Shown here in pieces: positions 20,696 to 28,423 of a DNA stretch of 64,000 nt. The position numbers and the translations under genes were made by a program. Positions within the stretch are counted from its first letter, which is position 1, and each line of letters opens with the position of its first letter. Source of the stretch: Microbacterium sp. 3J1 (GTDB lineage Bacteria > Actinomycetota > Actinomycetes > Actinomycetales > Microbacteriaceae); contig NZ_CDWI01000001.1 of NCBI RefSeq assembly GCF_001049495.1, forward strand, positions 186,001 through 250,000, in the 5' to 3' direction. The notes beneath the pieces were generated by a model. It saw only the letters and a program-made list of their open reading frames with translations. It was not told the DNA's origin and searched no databases.

Positions 20696-21211
20696 GTGTC
20701 GGATGAGTATGACCTGCGTCCAGACTCGCCGTTCGCACTCCTCTCCCCGAACGAGGTGTCCGCCTGGTTCGCCTACATGAAGGTGCACTTGCGGATCAGC
20801 TACGAGATGAACCGGCAACTGCGCGTGGACAGCGGGATCTCATTGGGAGACTTCGACGTGCTCGTCGCGTTGACGAGCGACCCGCACGGACGGATGACGG
20901 TTTCCGGCCTCGCCACACGGATCGGGTGGGAAAGAAGTCGCCTGTCGCATCATCTTCGACGCATGCGGGCCAGCGGGCTCGTGGAGACCAGCCAGTCGAC
21001 GTCGGACCGTCGCGTCACCGAGGTCGTGCTCACCGAGGCGGGATCCCAGAAGCTCCGTGAAGCCTCTCCGTCTCACATCGGCTTCGTCCAGCGGGCATTC
21101 TTCGGCGATCTCGCACCGGCCGAGATCGCGGCGCTGACCTCGACGCTGGAGAAGGTCTATGACGGCCTCATCGAGCACGGGTCATTGCCGCGGCCGGAGG
21201 ATCACCCCTGA
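20696..21211 (+). CDS. MarR family transcriptional regulator
   Basis: 171 residues with the winged helix MTVSGLATRIGWERSRLSHHLRRM (about residues 62-85) and the wing ASGLVETSQSTSDRRVTEVVLTEAG in two parts, ending in a dimerisation helix. The GTG start is preceded by GGAAGGAGA. It diverges from the hydrolase/redox operon. MarR proteins of this type commonly sense phenolics or oxidised thiols; no cysteine is seen in the DNA-binding core, which argues against a Cys redox switch. Confidence 0.92.
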   Translation: MSDEYDLRPDSPFALLSPNEVSAWFAYMKVHLRISYEMNRQLRVDSGISLGDFDVLVALTSDPHGRMTVSGLATRIGWERSRLSHHLRRMRASGLVETSQSTSDRRVTEVVLTEAGSQKLREASPSHIGFVQRAFFGDLAPAEIAALTSTLEKVYDGLIEHGSLPRPEDHP

Positions 21212-21216
21212 GCGAA

Positions 21217-23442
21217 TCAGTCGGCCTCCGGCAAAGGCGGATCAAGCTCTGCCCGGGCGACAGTCTCGCCTCTCAGATCACCGATCTGAGCGAAGGTCTC
21301 CGCCGCTCGGGCGAATGCCGCGCGAGCGGACTCCTCGTCCCCGTTCATCCGGTGCGCTCGGCCGATCCGGAGGTGGGCGAGTCCCGCGCCCTGAGCCAGG
21401 TCGAGCTCCTCGGCCGCCTGCAACGCCGCGTGAGCCGCCGCCAGCGCCGTCTCCGGTTGCGTCGTTCCCAGCGCCGCCGACGCCATGCCGATGCGCGCGT
21501 TCACCAGCGCATGTCGAGCGATGTTGTGAGCCGGCGCCGTCGCCGGGTCCTCGACCCACGCAGCGGCGCGCTCTGCGTCGATCAGCGCCTCTTCGAACTT
21601 CGCCTCGAAGAGCTTGCTGGCTGAGAGGGTCAGCAGAGCCTGCGGGAATCCTTCCTTGTTCCGCATCCGCTCGAAGAGTTCCGCTGCCGCGTGTGCGTGC
21701 CGCTGCGCCTCTGCCTGCTCGCCCGTCGCCGTCTGCACCTCCGCGATGTACATGTGACTCCAGGCGATCTGTTCTGCATCGTCCGCCGATGTCGCCGCGT
21801 CGAGCGCCGCCTCGGCGTGAACGAGCGACTGCGCGAGGTCCCAGCGTTCCATCCGATCTGCCCACGACAGATACCCGAGGTGTCGGGCCTGCTCCGAGCG
21901 ATCGGCGATGGCCACGGCCGATGAGACCGAGAGGCGAAACACCGTATGCCAGTTGCCCCACTTCAACCACAGATCGGAGAACCAGTGCAGGGAGTCCGCC
22001 ACGCGCAGCACGTCGGCATGCAGACCCGCCGCATGCGCGGCTCTCAGTGCTGCGAGCCAGTGCTCGGCGTTGGCGACCAGCCACGCTCTTGCCGCGGGCT
22101 GTTCTTCTTCGATGGCTCGTCGCTCCGTCGGGATCGCCTCCTGCGTGTCTGGTTCGAAGAGCTGTCCGTATTCGAACGTGCGCTGCAGCAACCACGAGAC
22201 CTTGTTCTTCTCGAGGGTCGCCACCTCACGGCTGCCGAGAGCCTCGTCGAGTCGATCCCGCCCGTACAGGCGGAGAAGATCATGCATTCGGTACCGACCT
22301 CCCGCCGACGTCTCCACCAGCGCGAGTTCGATGAGCTCGTCGAGTGAATGCTCCGCGGTCCGCTGGGAGACCTGCAGGATGGCCGCCGGCAGGTCTGCAG
22401 AGAAAGTCGATCCGTCCAGGAGGCTGCACACGCCGAAGAGCGAACGAGCTGATTCGCTGAGCAGCTCGTACGACAGGTCAACGGCGTTCTTGACCTCCAG
22501 ATCGCCCGCGCGCAAGGTGTCCAGCCGGGTGTCCGCGTTGCGCAGCCGGAAGAGCAAGTCCTCCGCCGACCAGTCGGGGCGGGTCGCCAGACGGTTCCCC
22601 GCGACCCGCAGCGCGAGCGGGATGCGTCCGCACAGTTGCGCCAGTTCCCTGGTGTGAGGGTCTCCGGCGTTCAGCGTCGGGGCGAGCGAGGCGAGAAGGA
22701 CTTCACTCTCCGACTGGGCGAGAGGGTCGATACGGAGACGATGGATGCGCTCCAGTCCCGACAGAGGCCGACGGCTCGTCACGATCACCAACGCACCCGG
22801 GTTGGCCAGGAGTGGGCGCACCTGTGCCTCGCTTCCGGCGTTGTCGAGGACGACGATGTGGCGTCGAGTCGTGTCTTCGCTCCAGAGCCGCATCGCAGCA
22901 CCCAGATCGGTCGCCACGAACTGCTCCGGTCGCGCCACCTGCCCGAGGATCGCCTGGATGACGGCGAGGGGCGACGCCGGTCTGGCATCGAGGCCCTGGA
23001 GGTCGGCGAACAGTACTCGCGCTCCTTCGTCGGCGAACAGCCGTGCCGCTTCCAGGGCGAGGGACGTCTTGCCGATTCCGGGAGCGCCCCACAGGAGCGC
23101 CGCTCCGCCGGAATCGCCGACAGCGGAGCGCAGTCGTGCGAGCTCGTCGATGCGCCCCACGAAGTCCGCCAAGGGCGTGGGCATGACCGTGGAGGCGACC
23201 TCGCGTCGCTGCTGCCGCACCGACCGCGCCGTGTGGAGGAAGACCTCCCGCTCCGCTCCGCGGAGCTGCAGGGCATCGGCGAGCAGTCGTACGGTGCGCA
23301 CCTGTGGTGCCACGCTGACACCCCGCTCGATGTCGCCGATGCCCCGCTCACTCACGCCCGATGCCTCACTGAGCGCCTCGAGTGTGAGGTCTCGCGCAAC
23401 TCGACGGTCGCGCAGCATCGCGCCGAACGGGTTCTGACTCAA
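21217..23442 (-). CDS. STAND regulator: XRE HTH - NB-ARC ATPase - TPR array
   Basis: 741 residues. The XRE helix-turn-helix lies at about 8-60 (LTLEALSEASGVSERGIGDI). The NB-ARC/NACHT-type ATPase has Walker A GAPGIGKTS at 119-127, Walker B IVVLDNAG, sensor IVTSRRPL and the ARC helix GRIPLALRVAGNRL. TPR-like helical repeats run from about 430 to the end. Such AfsR/GutR-like STAND proteins switch on ATP and ligand binding to control transcription. The TTG start at 23442 is preceded by GGGAGGAG. An NTF2-like gene lies 43 bp upstream in the same direction. The ligand and targets are unknown. Confidence 0.93.
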   Translation of the reverse strand: MSQNPFGAMLRDRRVARDLTLEALSEASGVSERGIGDIERGVSVAPQVRTVRLLADALQLRGAEREVFLHTARSVRQQRREVASTVMPTPLADFVGRIDELARLRSAVGDSGGAALLWGAPGIGKTSLALEAARLFADEGARVLFADLQGLDARPASPLAVIQAILGQVARPEQFVATDLGAAMRLWSEDTTRRHIVVLDNAGSEAQVRPLLANPGALVIVTSRRPLSGLERIHRLRIDPLAQSESEVLLASLAPTLNAGDPHTRELAQLCGRIPLALRVAGNRLATRPDWSAEDLLFRLRNADTRLDTLRAGDLEVKNAVDLSYELLSESARSLFGVCSLLDGSTFSADLPAAILQVSQRTAEHSLDELIELALVETSAGGRYRMHDLLRLYGRDRLDEALGSREVATLEKNKVSWLLQRTFEYGQLFEPDTQEAIPTERRAIEEEQPAARAWLVANAEHWLAALRAAHAAGLHADVLRVADSLHWFSDLWLKWGNWHTVFRLSVSSAVAIADRSEQARHLGYLSWADRMERWDLAQSLVHAEAALDAATSADDAEQIAWSHMYIAEVQTATGEQAEAQRHAHAAAELFERMRNKEGFPQALLTLSASKLFEAKFEEALIDAERAAAWVEDPATAPAHNIARHALVNARIGMASAALGTTQPETALAAAHAALQAAEELDLAQGAGLAHLRIGRAHRMNGDEESARAAFARAAETFAQIGDLRGETVARAELDPPLPEAD

Positions 23443-23485: not shown

Positions 23486-23842
23486 TCAGGCGTCGATGAC
23501 GACGTAGAGCGCGGTGATCAGCCCGTTCTGCACGAGAAGCACGTCGCGGCCGGTGGCCGCTACGATTCCCTCGGTCGGCGTCCCGAGACTCCACTGATAG
23601 GTCACGAGGTCCTGCGCCTGCTGGATCGGCCCATTCAGTGTGAGAGTCATCCCGGGCAGCGCGCCGTGAAGACCGGCGATGGCCTCGTTCACCCCGGCGT
23701 GCCCGGCGTAGGAGGCATCGCTCTCCGTGGTCCTGACGTCATCGGCGTACACCTTCGCCATCGATGTGAGGCGCTGCCCGGCATCTCCGGAGTTCCATAC
23801 ATCGAGGTGAGCATCTACCAGGGTGCGGATGTCTGAGGTCAC
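23486..23842 (-). CDS. NTF2-like / SnoaL-like small protein
   Basis: 118 residues with an NTF2-fold pattern: the first helix IRTLVDAHLDVWNSGDAGQR, then AKVYADDVRTTESDASYAGH, and strands ending LLVQNGLITALYVVIDA. Relatives are polyketide-type isomerases, limonene-epoxide hydrolase-like enzymes or ligand binders. No catalytic set is certain. GTG 23842 has AAGGAG 8 nt upstream; a palindrome and TACATT box lie just before. It is probably co-transcribed with the STAND regulator and could supply its ligand (inference only). Confidence 0.82.
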   Translation of the reverse strand: MTSDIRTLVDAHLDVWNSGDAGQRLTSMAKVYADDVRTTESDASYAGHAGVNEAIAGLHGALPGMTLTLNGPIQQAQDLVTYQWSLGTPTEGIVAATGRDVLLVQNGLITALYVVIDA

Positions 23843-23921: not shown

Positions 23922-25253
23922 TCATGCCGCGAGCAGAGGCGCGCGCACGCCACGACCGAGGTCGCGGATGGTGGGAGCGACAGTCGCGGCGAGCATGAGC
24001 ACCAGGGCGCCCGAAGCGACGACCGCTGCCTCACCCAGGCGAAGAACGGGTGCAACGTGGAGGGCGAGAGCCGACCCCGCAACAGCCAGCACCGTGACGA
24101 CGAGAGCGGAAAGGAGCCCGGTCCCGACATAGATCACCGCTTCATACACTGCACTGGCGATGACGACCTCGGGGGTTGCCCCGGCTGACTGCAGCAGTGC
24201 CTGCTCGCCCGCACGCGAGCGACCAGACATGAAGACCGTAGCTGTGGCGCCGGCGATGGAAAGGAGGATGGGGCCGCCGATGAGAAGGACCACGACCTGT
24301 GAAGGCAAGCCCGCGCCGGGGGCTGAGTCGGCACGTGCGCTCGACACCGTCGCGTCGAGCGAGAACAGAAGGCCGCTCGACGCTGAAGCGATCATGAGCG
24401 GTCCCACTGTCGCCGCACCTCGCCTGATGTTGTCGGCTGCGGCGGCGCGGGCGAGGAACCATGCCACGGACAGCCGAGTCGGCACGGCTCTGGTCCAGCC
24501 ACGGGTCACCCACGCGTACAGCGGGGCACCGACGCCCGCGACAGCGGCCGCCAGCAGAACCCCGGCGATGAGCAAGGGCAGCTCGGCTGCGCCCGGAGAG
24601 CGTCCCTCTTGAGCGAAGATCATCCCTGCTCCGGCGACGGTCAGCAGACCGACACCGACCATGCGCGCTCTCGGGAAAGGGCGCGGCGACGAGCCGCCGC
24701 CCCGAATCGCAACCGTGATCGTCACTCTGCTCGCAGCGCGCGCGGCCCGCATGCTCGCGACGACCGAGACAAGGACCACCGTGCCGACAGCGGAGAACAC
24801 GCCAACCGGCGAGGACACTGCGCCCAGCCCGTCGAAGCCGCGCGCGCCCTCGAGCACATACCCGAGCATCGGGGCAAGGGCGGGGCCAGCCGCGACAGCT
24901 CCGAGAATCGACGCGACCGTGGACGCGACCAGCACCTGCATGAGGACGACGGCTTGGATCCGTGCCGGGGTGAAGCCGATCACCTGCCACAACGCGTACT
25001 CGCGTTCCTGAAGGGCGACGGTGAGACCTGCGACGGATGACAGGACGATGATCGCGGCGACGAGGACGAACACGATCACCACTCCGCTGATCCCGTACGT
25101 CGCCAACGCCGTCACCCCTCCGGCGCGAATGCCGGATTCGAGGAATCCTGCGGCGAGACCCGCGATGAATGCCGTGAGAAATCCGACCGCGAGCACTCCT
25201 GCCCAGATCCGGAGGTTGCTCAGGAGGTCCGCGATGATGAGTCGAGCGATCAC
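23922..25253 (-). CDS. FtsX-like ABC transporter permease
   Basis: 443 residues with two FtsX-type membrane segments: a helix set around residues 50-185 with LQEREYALWQVIGFTPARIQ (the conserved cytoplasmic motif), and a C-terminal set with RAGEQALLQSAGATPEVVIA. Each half therefore carries the family's R-x-[QEF]-x-x-x-L-x-x-x-G-x-x-x-x loop. It is a MacB/LolE-style mechanotransmission permease, not a solute channel. The GTG start overlaps the ATPase stop as GTGA. No membrane-fusion partner or two-component sensor (Bce type) is nearby, so export of a peptide or drug is only a guess. Confidence 0.9.
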   Translation of the reverse strand: MIARLIIADLLSNLRIWAGVLAVGFLTAFIAGLAAGFLESGIRAGGVTALATYGISGVVIVFVLVAAIIVLSSVAGLTVALQEREYALWQVIGFTPARIQAVVLMQVLVASTVASILGAVAAGPALAPMLGYVLEGARGFDGLGAVSSPVGVFSAVGTVVLVSVVASMRAARAASRVTITVAIRGGGSSPRPFPRARMVGVGLLTVAGAGMIFAQEGRSPGAAELPLLIAGVLLAAAVAGVGAPLYAWVTRGWTRAVPTRLSVAWFLARAAAADNIRRGAATVGPLMIASASSGLLFSLDATVSSARADSAPGAGLPSQVVVLLIGGPILLSIAGATATVFMSGRSRAGEQALLQSAGATPEVVIASAVYEAVIYVGTGLLSALVVTVLAVAGSALALHVAPVLRLGEAAVVASGALVLMLAATVAPTIRDLGRGVRAPLLAA

Positions 25254-25993
25254 GAGAGCTGGCCTGCCTCCGTGACGGCGTCGAGCACGGCTCGCGCAGA
25301 GGGGTTGGCGAGTTGTCTATGGATCTCGCCGTCACGAAGGACGAGCACTCGATCGGCGGTCGCGGCGGCCTCCAGGTCGTGCGTGACCAGGACGACGGAT
25401 CGATCCGCGGTCGCGGCGGAATGCAGCAGTTCGAGAACCTTCGCGCTCGCCAACTCATCCAGGGCGCCGGTGGGCTCGTCGGCGAAGACCACCTGAGGCT
25501 TCGCGGCGAGCACTCGCGCGATTGCGACTCGCTGCTGTTGCCCGCCGGAGAGTTCACGAGGTCGATGGTCGCCGCGGTCACTCAGCCCGACGTCGGCCAG
25601 CGCTTCGTCCACCGCTGACGCGCTGAGGGCACGATGCGCGAGGATCGCCGGAAGAGCGATGTTCTCCCGTGCAGTCAACGACCCGATGAGGTTGTACGTC
25701 TGAAAGATGACACCGACCTCATCCCGACGGAGCTTCGCAAGCGCCGCCCGGCTGAGCGTGTCCACTCTCTTTCCGGCCACCTCCACGCTCCCCCCGTCGA
25801 CGGGCTCCAATCCGGACAGCGCGTAGAGAAGCGTCGACTTTCCGGACCCGCTCGGTCCTACGATCGCGACGAACTCGCCGCGTCCCACCGTGAGGGACAC
25901 GTCCTTCAGCACGGGCAGGGGACGGCCATCCGGATCGCTGTAGATCTTCGTGATCCCGTCCGCCCTGACCACGTCCCGTGAGGCATCGCCCAT
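25250..25993 (-). CDS. ABC transporter ATP-binding protein, LolD/MacB type
   Basis: 247 residues with Walker A GPSGSGKST (about residues 45-53), Q-loop IFQTYNLIG, signature ELSGGQQQRVAIAR, Walker B VVFADEPTGALD and H-loop VTHD. The sequence EPTGALD is diagnostic for the family that pairs with FtsX permeases. I take ATG 25993 (GGGAGATC upstream) rather than the preceding in-frame TTG. It diverges from the ArsR gene, with the first GTTKGA-N6-TCAAAC operator in the 89-bp gap, so this exporter may share that regulation. Confidence 0.94.
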   Translation of the reverse strand: MGDASRDVVRADGITKIYSDPDGRPLPVLKDVSLTVGRGEFVAIVGPSGSGKSTLLYALSGLEPVDGGSVEVAGKRVDTLSRAALAKLRRDEVGVIFQTYNLIGSLTARENIALPAILAHRALSASAVDEALADVGLSDRGDHRPRELSGGQQQRVAIARVLAAKPQVVFADEPTGALDELASAKVLELLHSAATADRSVVLVTHDLEAAATADRVLVLRDGEIHRQLANPSARAVLDAVTEAGQLS

Positions 25994-26029
25994 CAATGAT
26001 CTCCCAAGATCTCTCAGCGCCCGAGGCGC

Positions 26030-26059
26030 TACAATAGTTGGATAACGATCAAACTATTG
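26030..26059. promoter_or_regulatory. arsR-type promoter and operator 1
   Basis: TACAAT (26030-26035) resembles a -10 for the rightward regulator gene. It overlaps the perfect inverted repeat CAATAGTT (26032-26039) / AACTATTG (26052-26059), whose centre contains GTTGGA-N6-TCAAAC (26037-26054). Confidence 0.7.
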
Positions 26060-26082
26060 CACGGATTCCCGGAGGAGCGAAC

Positions 26083-26457
26083 ATGGCAGGTCCCGTCGAC
26101 GAATCAGCCTCGCGCCAGTTCTGGGAGCCGGACGTCCTGGAGATCCAACTCGTGGATGTGCTGAAGGCGATCGCCGATCCGGCCAGGTTGAGCATCCTCC
26201 ACGGCTTGGCCGACGGTGAGTACCACCCCTGCAACGTCGCGGAATTCGGTCTGCCCATTCACAAGTCGACGCTCTCCCATCACTTCAAGACACTCCGCGA
26301 AGCCGGCGTGACCACCACCCGCGTGCAGGGCCGCGAAGCGGGGGTCCGCCTGCGCTTCGCCGACCTCGAGCGTCGGTGGCCCGGACTGCTGCCCGCGCTG
26401 CTCCAGGCTGCATCGAGTCACACCTACGCCCCCGCAGGCAGGACGCCGACGGCATAG
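26083..26457 (+). CDS. ArsR family winged-helix regulator
   Basis: 124 residues: DVLKAIADPARLSILHGLAD then the recognition helix KSTLSHHFKTLREAGVT. The metal-binding ELCVCDL motif of classic ArsR proteins is replaced by YHPCNVAEF with a single Cys50, so a thiol or organic signal is more likely than arsenite. The ATG at 26083 follows GGAGGAG. Operator 1 covers its promoter, and two further copies of the same half-site arrangement lie between its stop and the PfpI gene, suggesting autorepression plus control of the downstream operon. Confidence 0.92.
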   Translation: MAGPVDESASRQFWEPDVLEIQLVDVLKAIADPARLSILHGLADGEYHPCNVAEFGLPIHKSTLSHHFKTLREAGVTTTRVQGREAGVRLRFADLERRWPGLLPALLQAASSHTYAPAGRTPTA

Positions 26458-26480
26458 GGCCACCTGAGGACGCAGTCGAA

Positions 26481-26502
26481 CTGTTTGACAAGTATCAAAC
26501 AG
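26481..26502. promoter_or_regulatory. Operator 2 (perfect 8-6-8 palindrome)
   Basis: CTGTTTGA (26481-26488) is perfectly inverted as TCAAACAG (26495-26502) around a 6-nt spacer. It contains GTTTGA-N6-TCAAAC, the motif at operator 1, and lies 24 bp after the arsR-type stop. Confidence 0.7.
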
Positions 26503-26515
26503 CTGTGCACAATAA

Positions 26516-26541
26516 AATTGTTTGATGTTTGTCGAACAATT
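26516..26541. promoter_or_regulatory. Operator 3 and probable promoter of the PfpI-SDR operon
   Basis: AATTGTTTGA (26516-26525) and TCGAACAATT (26532-26541) form a 10-bp inverted repeat with one mismatch around 6 nt, again GTTTGA-N6-TCRAAC. TTGTTT at 26518 with TTATCT about 16 bp downstream could be the -35/-10 pair, so a bound repressor would occlude it. Confidence 0.65.
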
Positions 26542-26557
26542 ATCTCTCGAGGTGAAC

Positions 26558-27148
26558 ATGCCCATCACACACGATCACGACGTCTCCGACAACCGCGCCG
26601 GAATCGGACACGGTCGCACCCGCGGCCGTGTCGCGATCCTGACCGCGGACGACGTCGAGGACGTCGAGTTCTTCTACCCGTACTACCGGTTCGTCGAAGA
26701 GGGATTCGACGTCGATGTGCTCACCCCGGCGAGCACGACGGTCACCGGCTACAAGGGTCTTTCGCTCTCGACGGGCGTTTCTGCGGTCGCTGATGCGAAC
26801 CCGGCGGACTACGACCTCCTGTTCATCCCTGGAGGTCTTGCTCCTGGAGCCGTTCGCCAGGACTCGGACTCGGTCTCGTTCGTGCAGGACTTCGCTACGA
26901 CAGGCCGTGTCATCGGGGCCGTGTGCCACGGGCCTCAGGTGCTGGTCACCGCCGGCCTGGTCGAGGGTCGGCGCATGACCTCCTGGAAGGACGTCGCCCA
27001 CGAGATCCGCGACGCCGGCGGCGAGTATGTGGACGAGCCCGTCGTCGAAGATGCGCAGTTCATCACCGCGCGCAAGCCCGGCGATATGCCTCGGGAGATG
27101 GCTCGGATCTTCGAGCGTCTCACAGAGGCGAACGGAGAGAACGCATGA
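26558..27148 (+). CDS. PfpI/DJ-1 family protein (class I glutamine amidotransferase-like)
   Basis: 196 residues of the DJ-1/PfpI fold: the conserved acidic turn TADDVEDVEFFYPYYRF, DLLFIPGG, and the nucleophile elbow AVCHGPQ with Cys123-His124. Members are glyoxalase III/deglycases, cysteine peptidases or chaperones; the sequence does not decide. ATG 26558 follows GAGGTGA; an in-frame codon at 26522 would lie inside operator 3. It overlaps the SDR by ATGA. ArsR-type control and the SDR partner fit a role against reactive carbonyls (inference). Confidence 0.9.
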   Translation: MPITHDHDVSDNRAGIGHGRTRGRVAILTADDVEDVEFFYPYYRFVEEGFDVDVLTPASTTVTGYKGLSLSTGVSAVADANPADYDLLFIPGGLAPGAVRQDSDSVSFVQDFATTGRVIGAVCHGPQVLVTAGLVEGRRMTSWKDVAHEIRDAGGEYVDEPVVEDAQFITARKPGDMPREMARIFERLTEANGENA

Positions 27149-28188
27149 ACTCGCTCATCGCCACCCCTTTCGGCCCGAAGACGACGGCTGACGAGGTGCT
27201 CGACGGTGTGGACCTGACCGGACGCACCTACCTGGTGACAGGTGGCGCGTCCGGCATCGGCGCGGAGACGGTGCGCGCTCTGGCGCGCGCAGGCGGAAAC
27301 GTCGTGATCGGAACACGGCGCCCGGAACAGGCGGACATGCTCCTTCGCGAGTTCAGAGGCCTCCCCGAAGCGGGAGACGTCAGCGCCGCCGAACTCGATC
27401 TCGCCGATCTCGGTTCTGTGGATCGCTTTGTCGAGAACTGGAGCTCCCCGCTCGACGCAGTCATCGCCAACGCCGGCATCATGGCCCTACCCCGGCGTGA
27501 AGAATCCGCCGAGCACTGGGAACTCCAGCTGGCTACGAACTACCTCGGCCACTTCGCTCTGATGAGAGGACTCCGGCCGCAACTGGCAGCCAGCAGTGAC
27601 GGACGGGTGGCCATCGTGAGCTCCACCGCACACCTGCGCTCACCCATGCATTTCGAGGACCCGAACTTCGTGAGCCGTCCCTACGACCGATGGGCCGCAT
27701 ACGCGCAGTCCAAGACGGCAGACGTGCTGCTCGCCGTCGGGATCGCGGAGAGGTGGGCCGGCGACGGGATCACGGCGAACGCTCTCATGCCGGGGTGGAT
27801 CACCACGAACCTACAACGTCACCTCGACGATGACACGCTCCGGGCACTCGGTGCGATGAACGAAGCCGGGGAGCGGATCGAGCAGTCCTATTTCAAGACG
27901 CCTGCGCAAGGAGCTGCGACATCTGTTCTCGTTGCGGCCTCCCCGCTCGTCAGCGGTGTGACCGGTCGCTACTTCGAGGACAACCAGGAAGCCGCGACGA
28001 TCGTCGACACCGAAGGCCACAGTGTCGGCGTCGCGGCGCATGCGCTCGACCGTGAAGCTGCCCAGCGCCTGTGGGTGTTGGGTGAAACCACGCTCGAGCG
28101 ACGCGAGCCGCGGCGTGCGTCGATGCCGGCGGTCACGACGAAGGGGCGGATGCCGCAGCATCCGCCCCTTCGTCGTGTCGACACCTGA
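27145..28188 (+). CDS. Short-chain dehydrogenase/reductase with unusual C-terminal extension
   Basis: 347 residues. Cofactor motif TGGASGIG at 32-39, NAG as IANAGIM, catalytic Ser in IVSSTAHL and YAQSK. It is of the retinol-dehydrogenase/light-dependent-reductase-like SDR branch with Arg in IGTRRPEQ favouring NADP(H). The last ~20 codons run straight through a perfect 20-bp hairpin (28134-28177) that looks like a terminator, so the natural stop was probably lost and the tail (about from ERREPRR) is non-native. Translationally coupled to the PfpI gene. Confidence 0.9.
   Translation: MNSLIATPFGPKTTADEVLDGVDLTGRTYLVTGGASGIGAETVRALARAGGNVVIGTRRPEQADMLLREFRGLPEAGDVSAAELDLADLGSVDRFVENWSSPLDAVIANAGIMALPRREESAEHWELQLATNYLGHFALMRGLRPQLAASSDGRVAIVSSTAHLRSPMHFEDPNFVSRPYDRWAAYAQSKTADVLLAVGIAERWAGDGITANALMPGWITTNLQRHLDDDTLRALGAMNEAGERIEQSYFKTPAQGAATSVLVAASPLVSGVTGRYFEDNQEAATIVDTEGHSVGVAAHALDREAAQRLWVLGETTLERREPRRASMPAVTTKGRMPQHPPLRRVDT
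28134..28177 (+). terminator. Terminator-like hairpin lying inside the SDR reading frame
   Basis: CACGACGAAGGGGCGGATGC (28134-28153) is perfectly complementary to 28158-28177 around the loop CGCA. The stem is 20 bp. No T-tract follows. Confidence 0.7.
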
Positions 28189-28213
28189 TGTGCCGCTTCG
28201 ACGAACCTGATCC

Positions 28214-28423
28214 CTACGACATGCTCCGAGGACAGTTCGAGCGCGCCGGGGTGCTCCTGAGCAGTCGAAGCCTTCGGTGCTTGGTGCCACCGATCCCGGC
28301 CTCACTCGCCACGCGACGGATGCGCTTCTCCCCCATCGCTGTGCGCAGATTCACGACGAACTGCCTTGCCGCCTCGCCCGCCGGATCAGGGGACGGCTCA
28401 TCCGTCCACGCGTTGGTGAGGTC
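28214..28423 (-). pseudogene. Remnant of an XRE-type regulator gene
   Basis: A 70-codon open stretch between two stops, without a usable start. It encodes DPAGEAARQFVVNLRTAMGE then KRIRRVASEAGIGGT, which matches the N-terminal part of an actinobacterial HTH family; after that the similarity ends (frame decay or deletion). Similarity is judged from memory of the family, so moderate confidence only. It sits between the SDR and nrdF, next to the SDR's lost stop, suggesting a past rearrangement. Confidence 0.45.

Follow-up and report, generated by a model that had tools for sequence, protein, structure and literature searches.

RexT of Nostoc sp. PCC 7120 (PDB 7TXM, 7TXN, and 7TXO) has been described as a protein of ArsR-type fold without a metal site, which forms a vicinal Cys40-Cys41 disulfide, recognizes the operator ATTCG-N15-CGAAT, and targets thioredoxin (PMC8960804). 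According to that report, the RexT cluster comprises 7085 sequences, with RexT being the sole member studied both biochemically and structurally by 2022, and CyeR of Corynebacterium glutamicum is assigned to the same cluster, its inactivation depending on a Cys that corresponds to RexT Cys41 (PMC8960804). A third ArsR-family protein, PyeR of Pseudomonas aeruginosa, is described as an autorepressor whose operon also encodes an MFS transporter and an oxidoreductase; this operon is induced by HOCl and its deletion renders cells HOCl sensitive (PMC7950407).

Here we analyzed a 64-kb stretch of Microbacterium sp. 3J1 (hereafter the window), in which an arsR gene lies upstream of genes for a PfpI-type protein and a short-chain dehydrogenase/reductase (SDR). 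The window ArsR resembles RexT in its fold, the lack of a metal site, and a Cys at the aligned position, whereas it has one Cys rather than a vicinal pair, an operator of the form TTYGA-N6-TCRAA, and PfpI-SDR as its predicted target (compared with PMC8960804). CyeR, as described in the same source, is likewise actinobacterial and controls an adjoining oxidoreductase, but it has another Cys at a distance of seven residues and its target is an old yellow enzyme (PMC8960804). The published description of PyeR differs in that its one operon is also under MexT, is lowered by HOSCN, and contains neither PfpI nor SDR (PMC7950407). A literature search, with thin coverage of subscription titles and with ArsR plus PfpI matches judged on titles and the starts of abstracts, returned no case of ArsR-family control of PfpI or a short-chain dehydrogenase. 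A predicted operator and predicted targets thus become available for a widespread but little-studied branch of ArsR proteins.

A single-cysteine ArsR-type regulator

The arsR gene (26083-26457, + strand) encodes a winged-helix protein of 124 aa with matches above cut-off to Pfam HTH_20 and HTH_5. Its structure model (pLDDT 86) matches the structures of RexT, SmtB, and CadC, and RexT is the best PDB match both by sequence and by fold (TM 0.71 to query). Domain and fold thus place it in the ArsR/SmtB family, and the palindrome at its own promoter (operator 1 below, with counterparts in 33 of 35 loci), which was assessed by sequence only, also agrees with this assignment. Cys50, the only Cys of the protein as had been predicted, aligns with the peroxidatic Cys41 of RexT (residue numbering of RexT is chain number minus 2), and RexT Arg61 and Thr68 are also matched, while Asn77 (Val here) and His75 are not. 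The vicinal Cys40-Cys41 pair and the full Cys41/Arg61/Thr68/Asn77 set of RexT are therefore absent, as is the CyeR-type second Cys seven residues away, and no thioredoxin gene was found among the neighbors examined (ABC, SnoaL, PfpI, and SDR genes). The window ArsR is nearest to RexT and CyeR (the latter compared by description) without having their defining cysteine pairs.

Three copies of one palindrome around arsR

Exact matches to GTTKGA-N6-TCRAAC were found by pattern search at 26037-26054, 26483-26500, and 26520-26537 in the window; the original prediction had the first two coordinates right and placed the third at 26518-26535, off by 2 bp. Each copy lies, as had been proposed, inside a longer palindrome, with 11 of 14 pairs matching over 26032-26059, 9 of 11 over 26481-26502, and 9 of 13 over 26516-26541. 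These three places are the only exact matches in the whole genome (3,400,308 bases; none in the reversed control). With up to two mismatches the window holds 10 matches against 8.4 expected by shuffling, and since there is no enrichment at this level, the signal resides in the exact copies and their longer palindromes. Up to three mismatches genome-wide, two further sites appear, both at a paralogous arsR-MFS pair (two matches in the reversed control), so that the regulon of the window ArsR looks local.

Further information was obtained from relatives. A symmetrical 26-bp motif of 34 bits was built from 40 distinct sites in the loci of 35 relatives with the window left out; its consensus is AATTGTTTGATGATCATCAAACAATT, with the core TTYGA-N6-TCRAA. 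This motif ranks the three window sites first to third, namely predicted operator 3 (26516-26541, no strand assigned; 44.0 bits) before PfpI, predicted operator 1 (26033-26058, no strand; 34.2 bits) between the ABC ATPase gene and arsR, and predicted operator 2 (26479-26504, no strand; 33.2 bits), also before PfpI, all with the exact 18-bp core, while the fourth-best place in the 64 kb reaches 5.1 bits and the top score in 3.4 Mb of first-order simulated sequence is 13.8 bits. As the training sites had been chosen by the core TTYGA-N6-TCRAA, which is akin to the pattern originally proposed, only the flanks and the middle count as independent in the case of sites 2 and 3. Site 1 (TTGGA) departs from the exact training core, yet it scores 34 bits.

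Conservation of the operator with the regulator and with PfpI-SDR genes

Searches for the regulator gave some match, mostly distant, in 284 of 295 genomes of the genus, and matches with E up to 1e-15 in 64 of 398 genomes of the family. Thirty-five loci were counted as orthologous, comprising the six closest among 29 further loci retrieved from the genus and every one of the 29 new loci retrieved from the family; the other 23 genus loci, partly of a paralogous type with different half-sites, were left out of this count. TTYGA-N6-TCRAA is present within 180 bases around the arsR start, just upstream of the gene, in 33 of the 35 loci (all except L052 and L058) and nowhere else in their 115 kb, and the same half-sites with spacers of 2-5 or 7-11 are not found in these loci at all (one match in the reversed control, with spacer 10). 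In 31 of 35 loci the divergent gene also has a site at its start, of the form TTYGA-N6-TCATA, and the two sites are 33-36 bp apart in the 30 loci that have both. All six divergent genes that were run against Pfam (five from orthologous loci and one at the paralog in the genome of the window) belong to MFS_1. At such loci (L005-L010, L053-L078) the second operator overlaps the start codon of the exporter gene, and the exporters begin with MTxIEQSY-like residues; likewise, several ArsR proteins whose start codon is overlapped by the operator have MSN as their first residues.

The PfpI gene (26558-27148, + strand) encodes a 196-aa PfpI/DJ-1 family protein with CHGP at Cys123-His124 (Pfam DJ-1_PfpI; TIGR01382 above cut-off; nearest solved structure PH1704). 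It overlaps by ATGA with the SDR gene (27145-28188, + strand), whose 347-aa product matches Pfam adh_short and has PRK06196, under its cut-off, as the best NCBIfam model. Close PfpI orthologs (E up to 1e-45) are rare, found in one of 295 genus and two of 398 family genomes, both counts including the genome of the window itself. A profile search of genome contigs with a two-row PfpI alignment yielded 22 loci. At eight of them PfpI is at least 54% identical; an SDR homologue adjoins PfpI in six of these eight, and the operator is present in four of those six, namely in Promicromonospora sp. MEB111, Curtobacterium sp. MCBD17_032, Herbiconiux solani, and Curtobacterium aurantiacum. In the latter three, arsR is divergent from PfpI-SDR with two operators 38-39 bp apart between them. 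In a fifth genome (L051, L080), arsR is accompanied by two operators 38 bp apart and by an SDR gene to which a PfpI-like N-terminus is joined. This SDR (L080:7871-8896) starts with residues resembling the PfpI N-terminus, as though PfpI had been lost in frame.

In Promicromonospora, one operator precedes PfpI-SDR, and the flanking 3.5 kb on each side contain no arsR. The 6.2-Mb genome contains exactly two exact GTTYGA-N6-TCRAAC sites, one before PfpI-SDR and the other, on another contig, immediately before the gene for an ArsR ortholog (51%), a gene that is divergent from an MFS-like one (judged by the start of the latter). From these positions we infer that the Promicromonospora ArsR may control PfpI-SDR in trans. 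At the PfpI-SDR loci of Actinoplanes cyaneus and Actinacidiphila guanduensis an AraC-type gene lies upstream; there are only more distant ArsR homologues, and no exact operator site was found in either genome. The shorter core occurs before one distant ArsR gene in each of these genomes (L131 and L132), implying that the core itself predates the clade of the window ArsR.

The sites had been proposed to define the regulon of the window ArsR, and the operator upstream of its orthologs, together with the PfpI-SDR genes that carry it in four other genomes, once apart from arsR, agrees with this. The link between regulator, operator, and target is well supported across these genomes, and the window contains a real, conserved set of the three, with arsR and PfpI-SDR as predicted targets. 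It had also been suggested that the genome be searched with GTTTGA-N6-TCAAAC. In the genome of the window the search proved specific, the broader GTTKGA-N6-TCRAAC occurring exactly at the three sites, whereas in the genus GTTTGA-N6-TCAAAC matches 17 of 295 genomes (own included) and is not specific, and seven of the 11 fetched loci examined belong to a different system. Judged by their translated starts, these seven have a MocR-like gene that adjoins a pdxS-like one. The palindrome there, GTTTGA-YNTARN-TCAAAC at 1501-1518 of L034, L035, L038, L041, L045, L047, and L048, lies between the two genes and probably serves as operator for a vitamin B6 regulator, with no relation to the window ArsR.

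Promoter overlap and proposed regulation

Operators 2 and 3, with 37 bp from center to center, both fall inside the 100-bp gap between arsR and PfpI and hence, as originally stated, upstream of PfpI-SDR. Within 25900-28400, TTGACA-17-CACAAT (26485-26513, + strand; 10 of 12 consensus positions, 0.4 such matches expected by shuffling) is the sole match resembling a promoter; its -35 hexamer is included in operator 2 and its expected transcription start is at operator 3. Since both operators overlap this sole candidate promoter, repression by occlusion is suggested. A TACAAT -10 box had been thought to overlap site 1. It lies at 26030-26035 and overlaps the longer palindrome by a few bases, leaving the 18-bp core untouched, and it has no good -35; in the direction of the ABC genes, no convincing promoter was seen in the arsR-ABC region.

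The operators, the regulator family, and the conserved association of regulator, operator, and target come directly out of the computation; DNA binding, repression, the start site, and release are steps that we infer. Very probably, the regulator represses itself and the PfpI-SDR pair, whose products are likely to act in detoxification, through three copies of one palindrome. In the mechanism that we favor with reasonable, if incomplete, confidence, the regulator, presumably dimeric and belonging to the RexT/CyeR branch of winged-helix ArsR-type repressors, would recognize the palindrome of about 26 bp; bound to operator 1 it would limit expression of its own gene, and bound to operators 2 and 3 it would cover the -35 hexamer and expected start of the PfpI promoter and block the PfpI-SDR operon. 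A chemical stress handled by the target enzymes would then weaken DNA binding and induce the operon; an electrophile or oxidant that acts on Cys50 is the likeliest trigger. Least certain in this scheme are the signal and the part played by Cys50. With this ArsR branch tied to a PfpI-SDR operon, the substrate of the PfpI-type protein may be approachable through the inducer.

Position 50 and the nature of the signal

Position 50 is Cys in 12 and Lys in 24 of the 61 rows aligned. The tree has a supported core clade of 39 rows (99/99) and groups 24 Lys rows in one clade (100/97), while a further Lys row, L075, is located within the Cys rows; the tree is midpoint-rooted and gives no direction for the change between Cys and Lys. 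The operator is kept in the Lys50 clade. Cys50 is present in all five PfpI/SDR-adjacent regulators found (window, L050, L051, L105, and L107) and likewise in eight regulators whose loci carry the MFS-type second site. The Promicromonospora regulator, which would control PfpI-SDR in trans, has Lys at this position. That Cys50 acts as an oxidant or carbonyl switch, as was suggested originally, is plausible. The exchange between Cys and Lys at the presumed sensor position, with the operator constant, offers a natural experiment on the mechanism of sensing.

Many repressors of efflux pumps bind a small ligand without covalent chemistry. The same repressor, operators, and targets might thus respond to a small xenobiotic or metabolite bound non-covalently, with Cys50 being incidental, a possibility to which we give appreciable but lesser weight. 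The MFS_1 assignment of the five divergent genes run, from loci of the kind that make up 31 of 35, the persistence of the operator in Lys50 relatives, and the Lys of L075 inside a Cys50 clade are all in line with a ligand, whereas RexT and CyeR, the two nearest characterized proteins, have been reported to act as redox switches through the aligned Cys (PMC8960804), and the Cys is kept in each of the five regulators next to PfpI/SDR genes. The sequence data would fit either a thiol switch or a ligand pocket. A broader form of the electrophile mechanism, which we offer as speculation and consider rather unlikely, is that this branch senses electrophiles covalently at one position, either Cys or Lys, with the operator unchanged, and that the same operator has shifted between MFS exporter genes and PfpI-SDR, even across contigs, such that efflux and repair would answer one reactive compound; the single Cys would then undergo alkylation or form a mixed disulfide with a small thiol, and no internal disulfide.

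It is improbable that another regulator, such as the ArsR paralog on contig 9 or the nearby MarR-type regulator (20696-21211, + strand; Pfam MarR_2), is the main reader of the three sites. The paralog does have two related sites (two and three mismatches) before its own arsR-MFS pair, and MarR genes recur in this neighborhood. Yet the paralog belongs to a different clade and its sites have different halves, the exact site elsewhere adjoins orthologs of the window ArsR, and a genus locus with MarR, SDR, and ABC genes but without ArsR has no site. Sensing of metal or arsenite is very improbable and was set aside, because, despite a score of 56.1 against a cut-off of 55 for a generic NCBIfam metalloregulator subfamily model, the metal-specific models are far below their cut-offs (CmtR, 39.9 against 150), the protein has one Cys and, as had been noted and as agrees with its sequence by eye, no metal motif, and metal transport and arsenic genes are absent among the targets.

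The ABC exporter and associated genes

Divergent from arsR are the genes of an ABC exporter, i.e., the ATPase (25250-25993, - strand; Pfam ABC_tran), a possible target of operator 1, and an FtsX-like permease (23922-25253, - strand; Pfam FtsX). The exporter had been listed as a tentative member of the regulon. In a search centered on the permease over the 295 genus genomes, no operator was found at 25 ABC homologue loci as fetched (L165 and L168 include little or no sequence upstream of the ATPase gene and carry little weight); conservation therefore does not support control of the exporter, and an ABC-centered regulon was rejected. In the window, operator 1 may still serve both directions.

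Farther along are genes for a SnoaL-like protein (23486-23842, - strand; Pfam SnoaL_2) and the MarR-type regulator; SnoaL-like genes recur near PfpI/SDR genes of relatives, as do homologues of the MarR gene (54% and 58% identical). Counterparts of the window's ABC ATPase, permease, SnoaL, and MarR genes lie beside PfpI-SDR in C. aurantiacum, similar ABC, SnoaL, and MarR genes lie beside SDR in the genus genome that has neither ArsR nor the site, and in a Streptomyces locus PfpI is near window-like ABC genes. Judged by this co-occurrence, the ABC, SnoaL, MarR, and PfpI-SDR genes look like one functional set. Genes for PfpI, SDR, an alpha/beta hydrolase, SnoaL, MarR, a large AAA-LuxR regulator, and an ABC exporter recur together in varying order in L173:9436-18619 and L174:7540-12083. 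In the window, a 741-aa protein with an XRE-type HTH and an AAA domain is encoded near this gene set (21217-23442) and perhaps stands in for the AAA-LuxR regulator of Curtobacterium.
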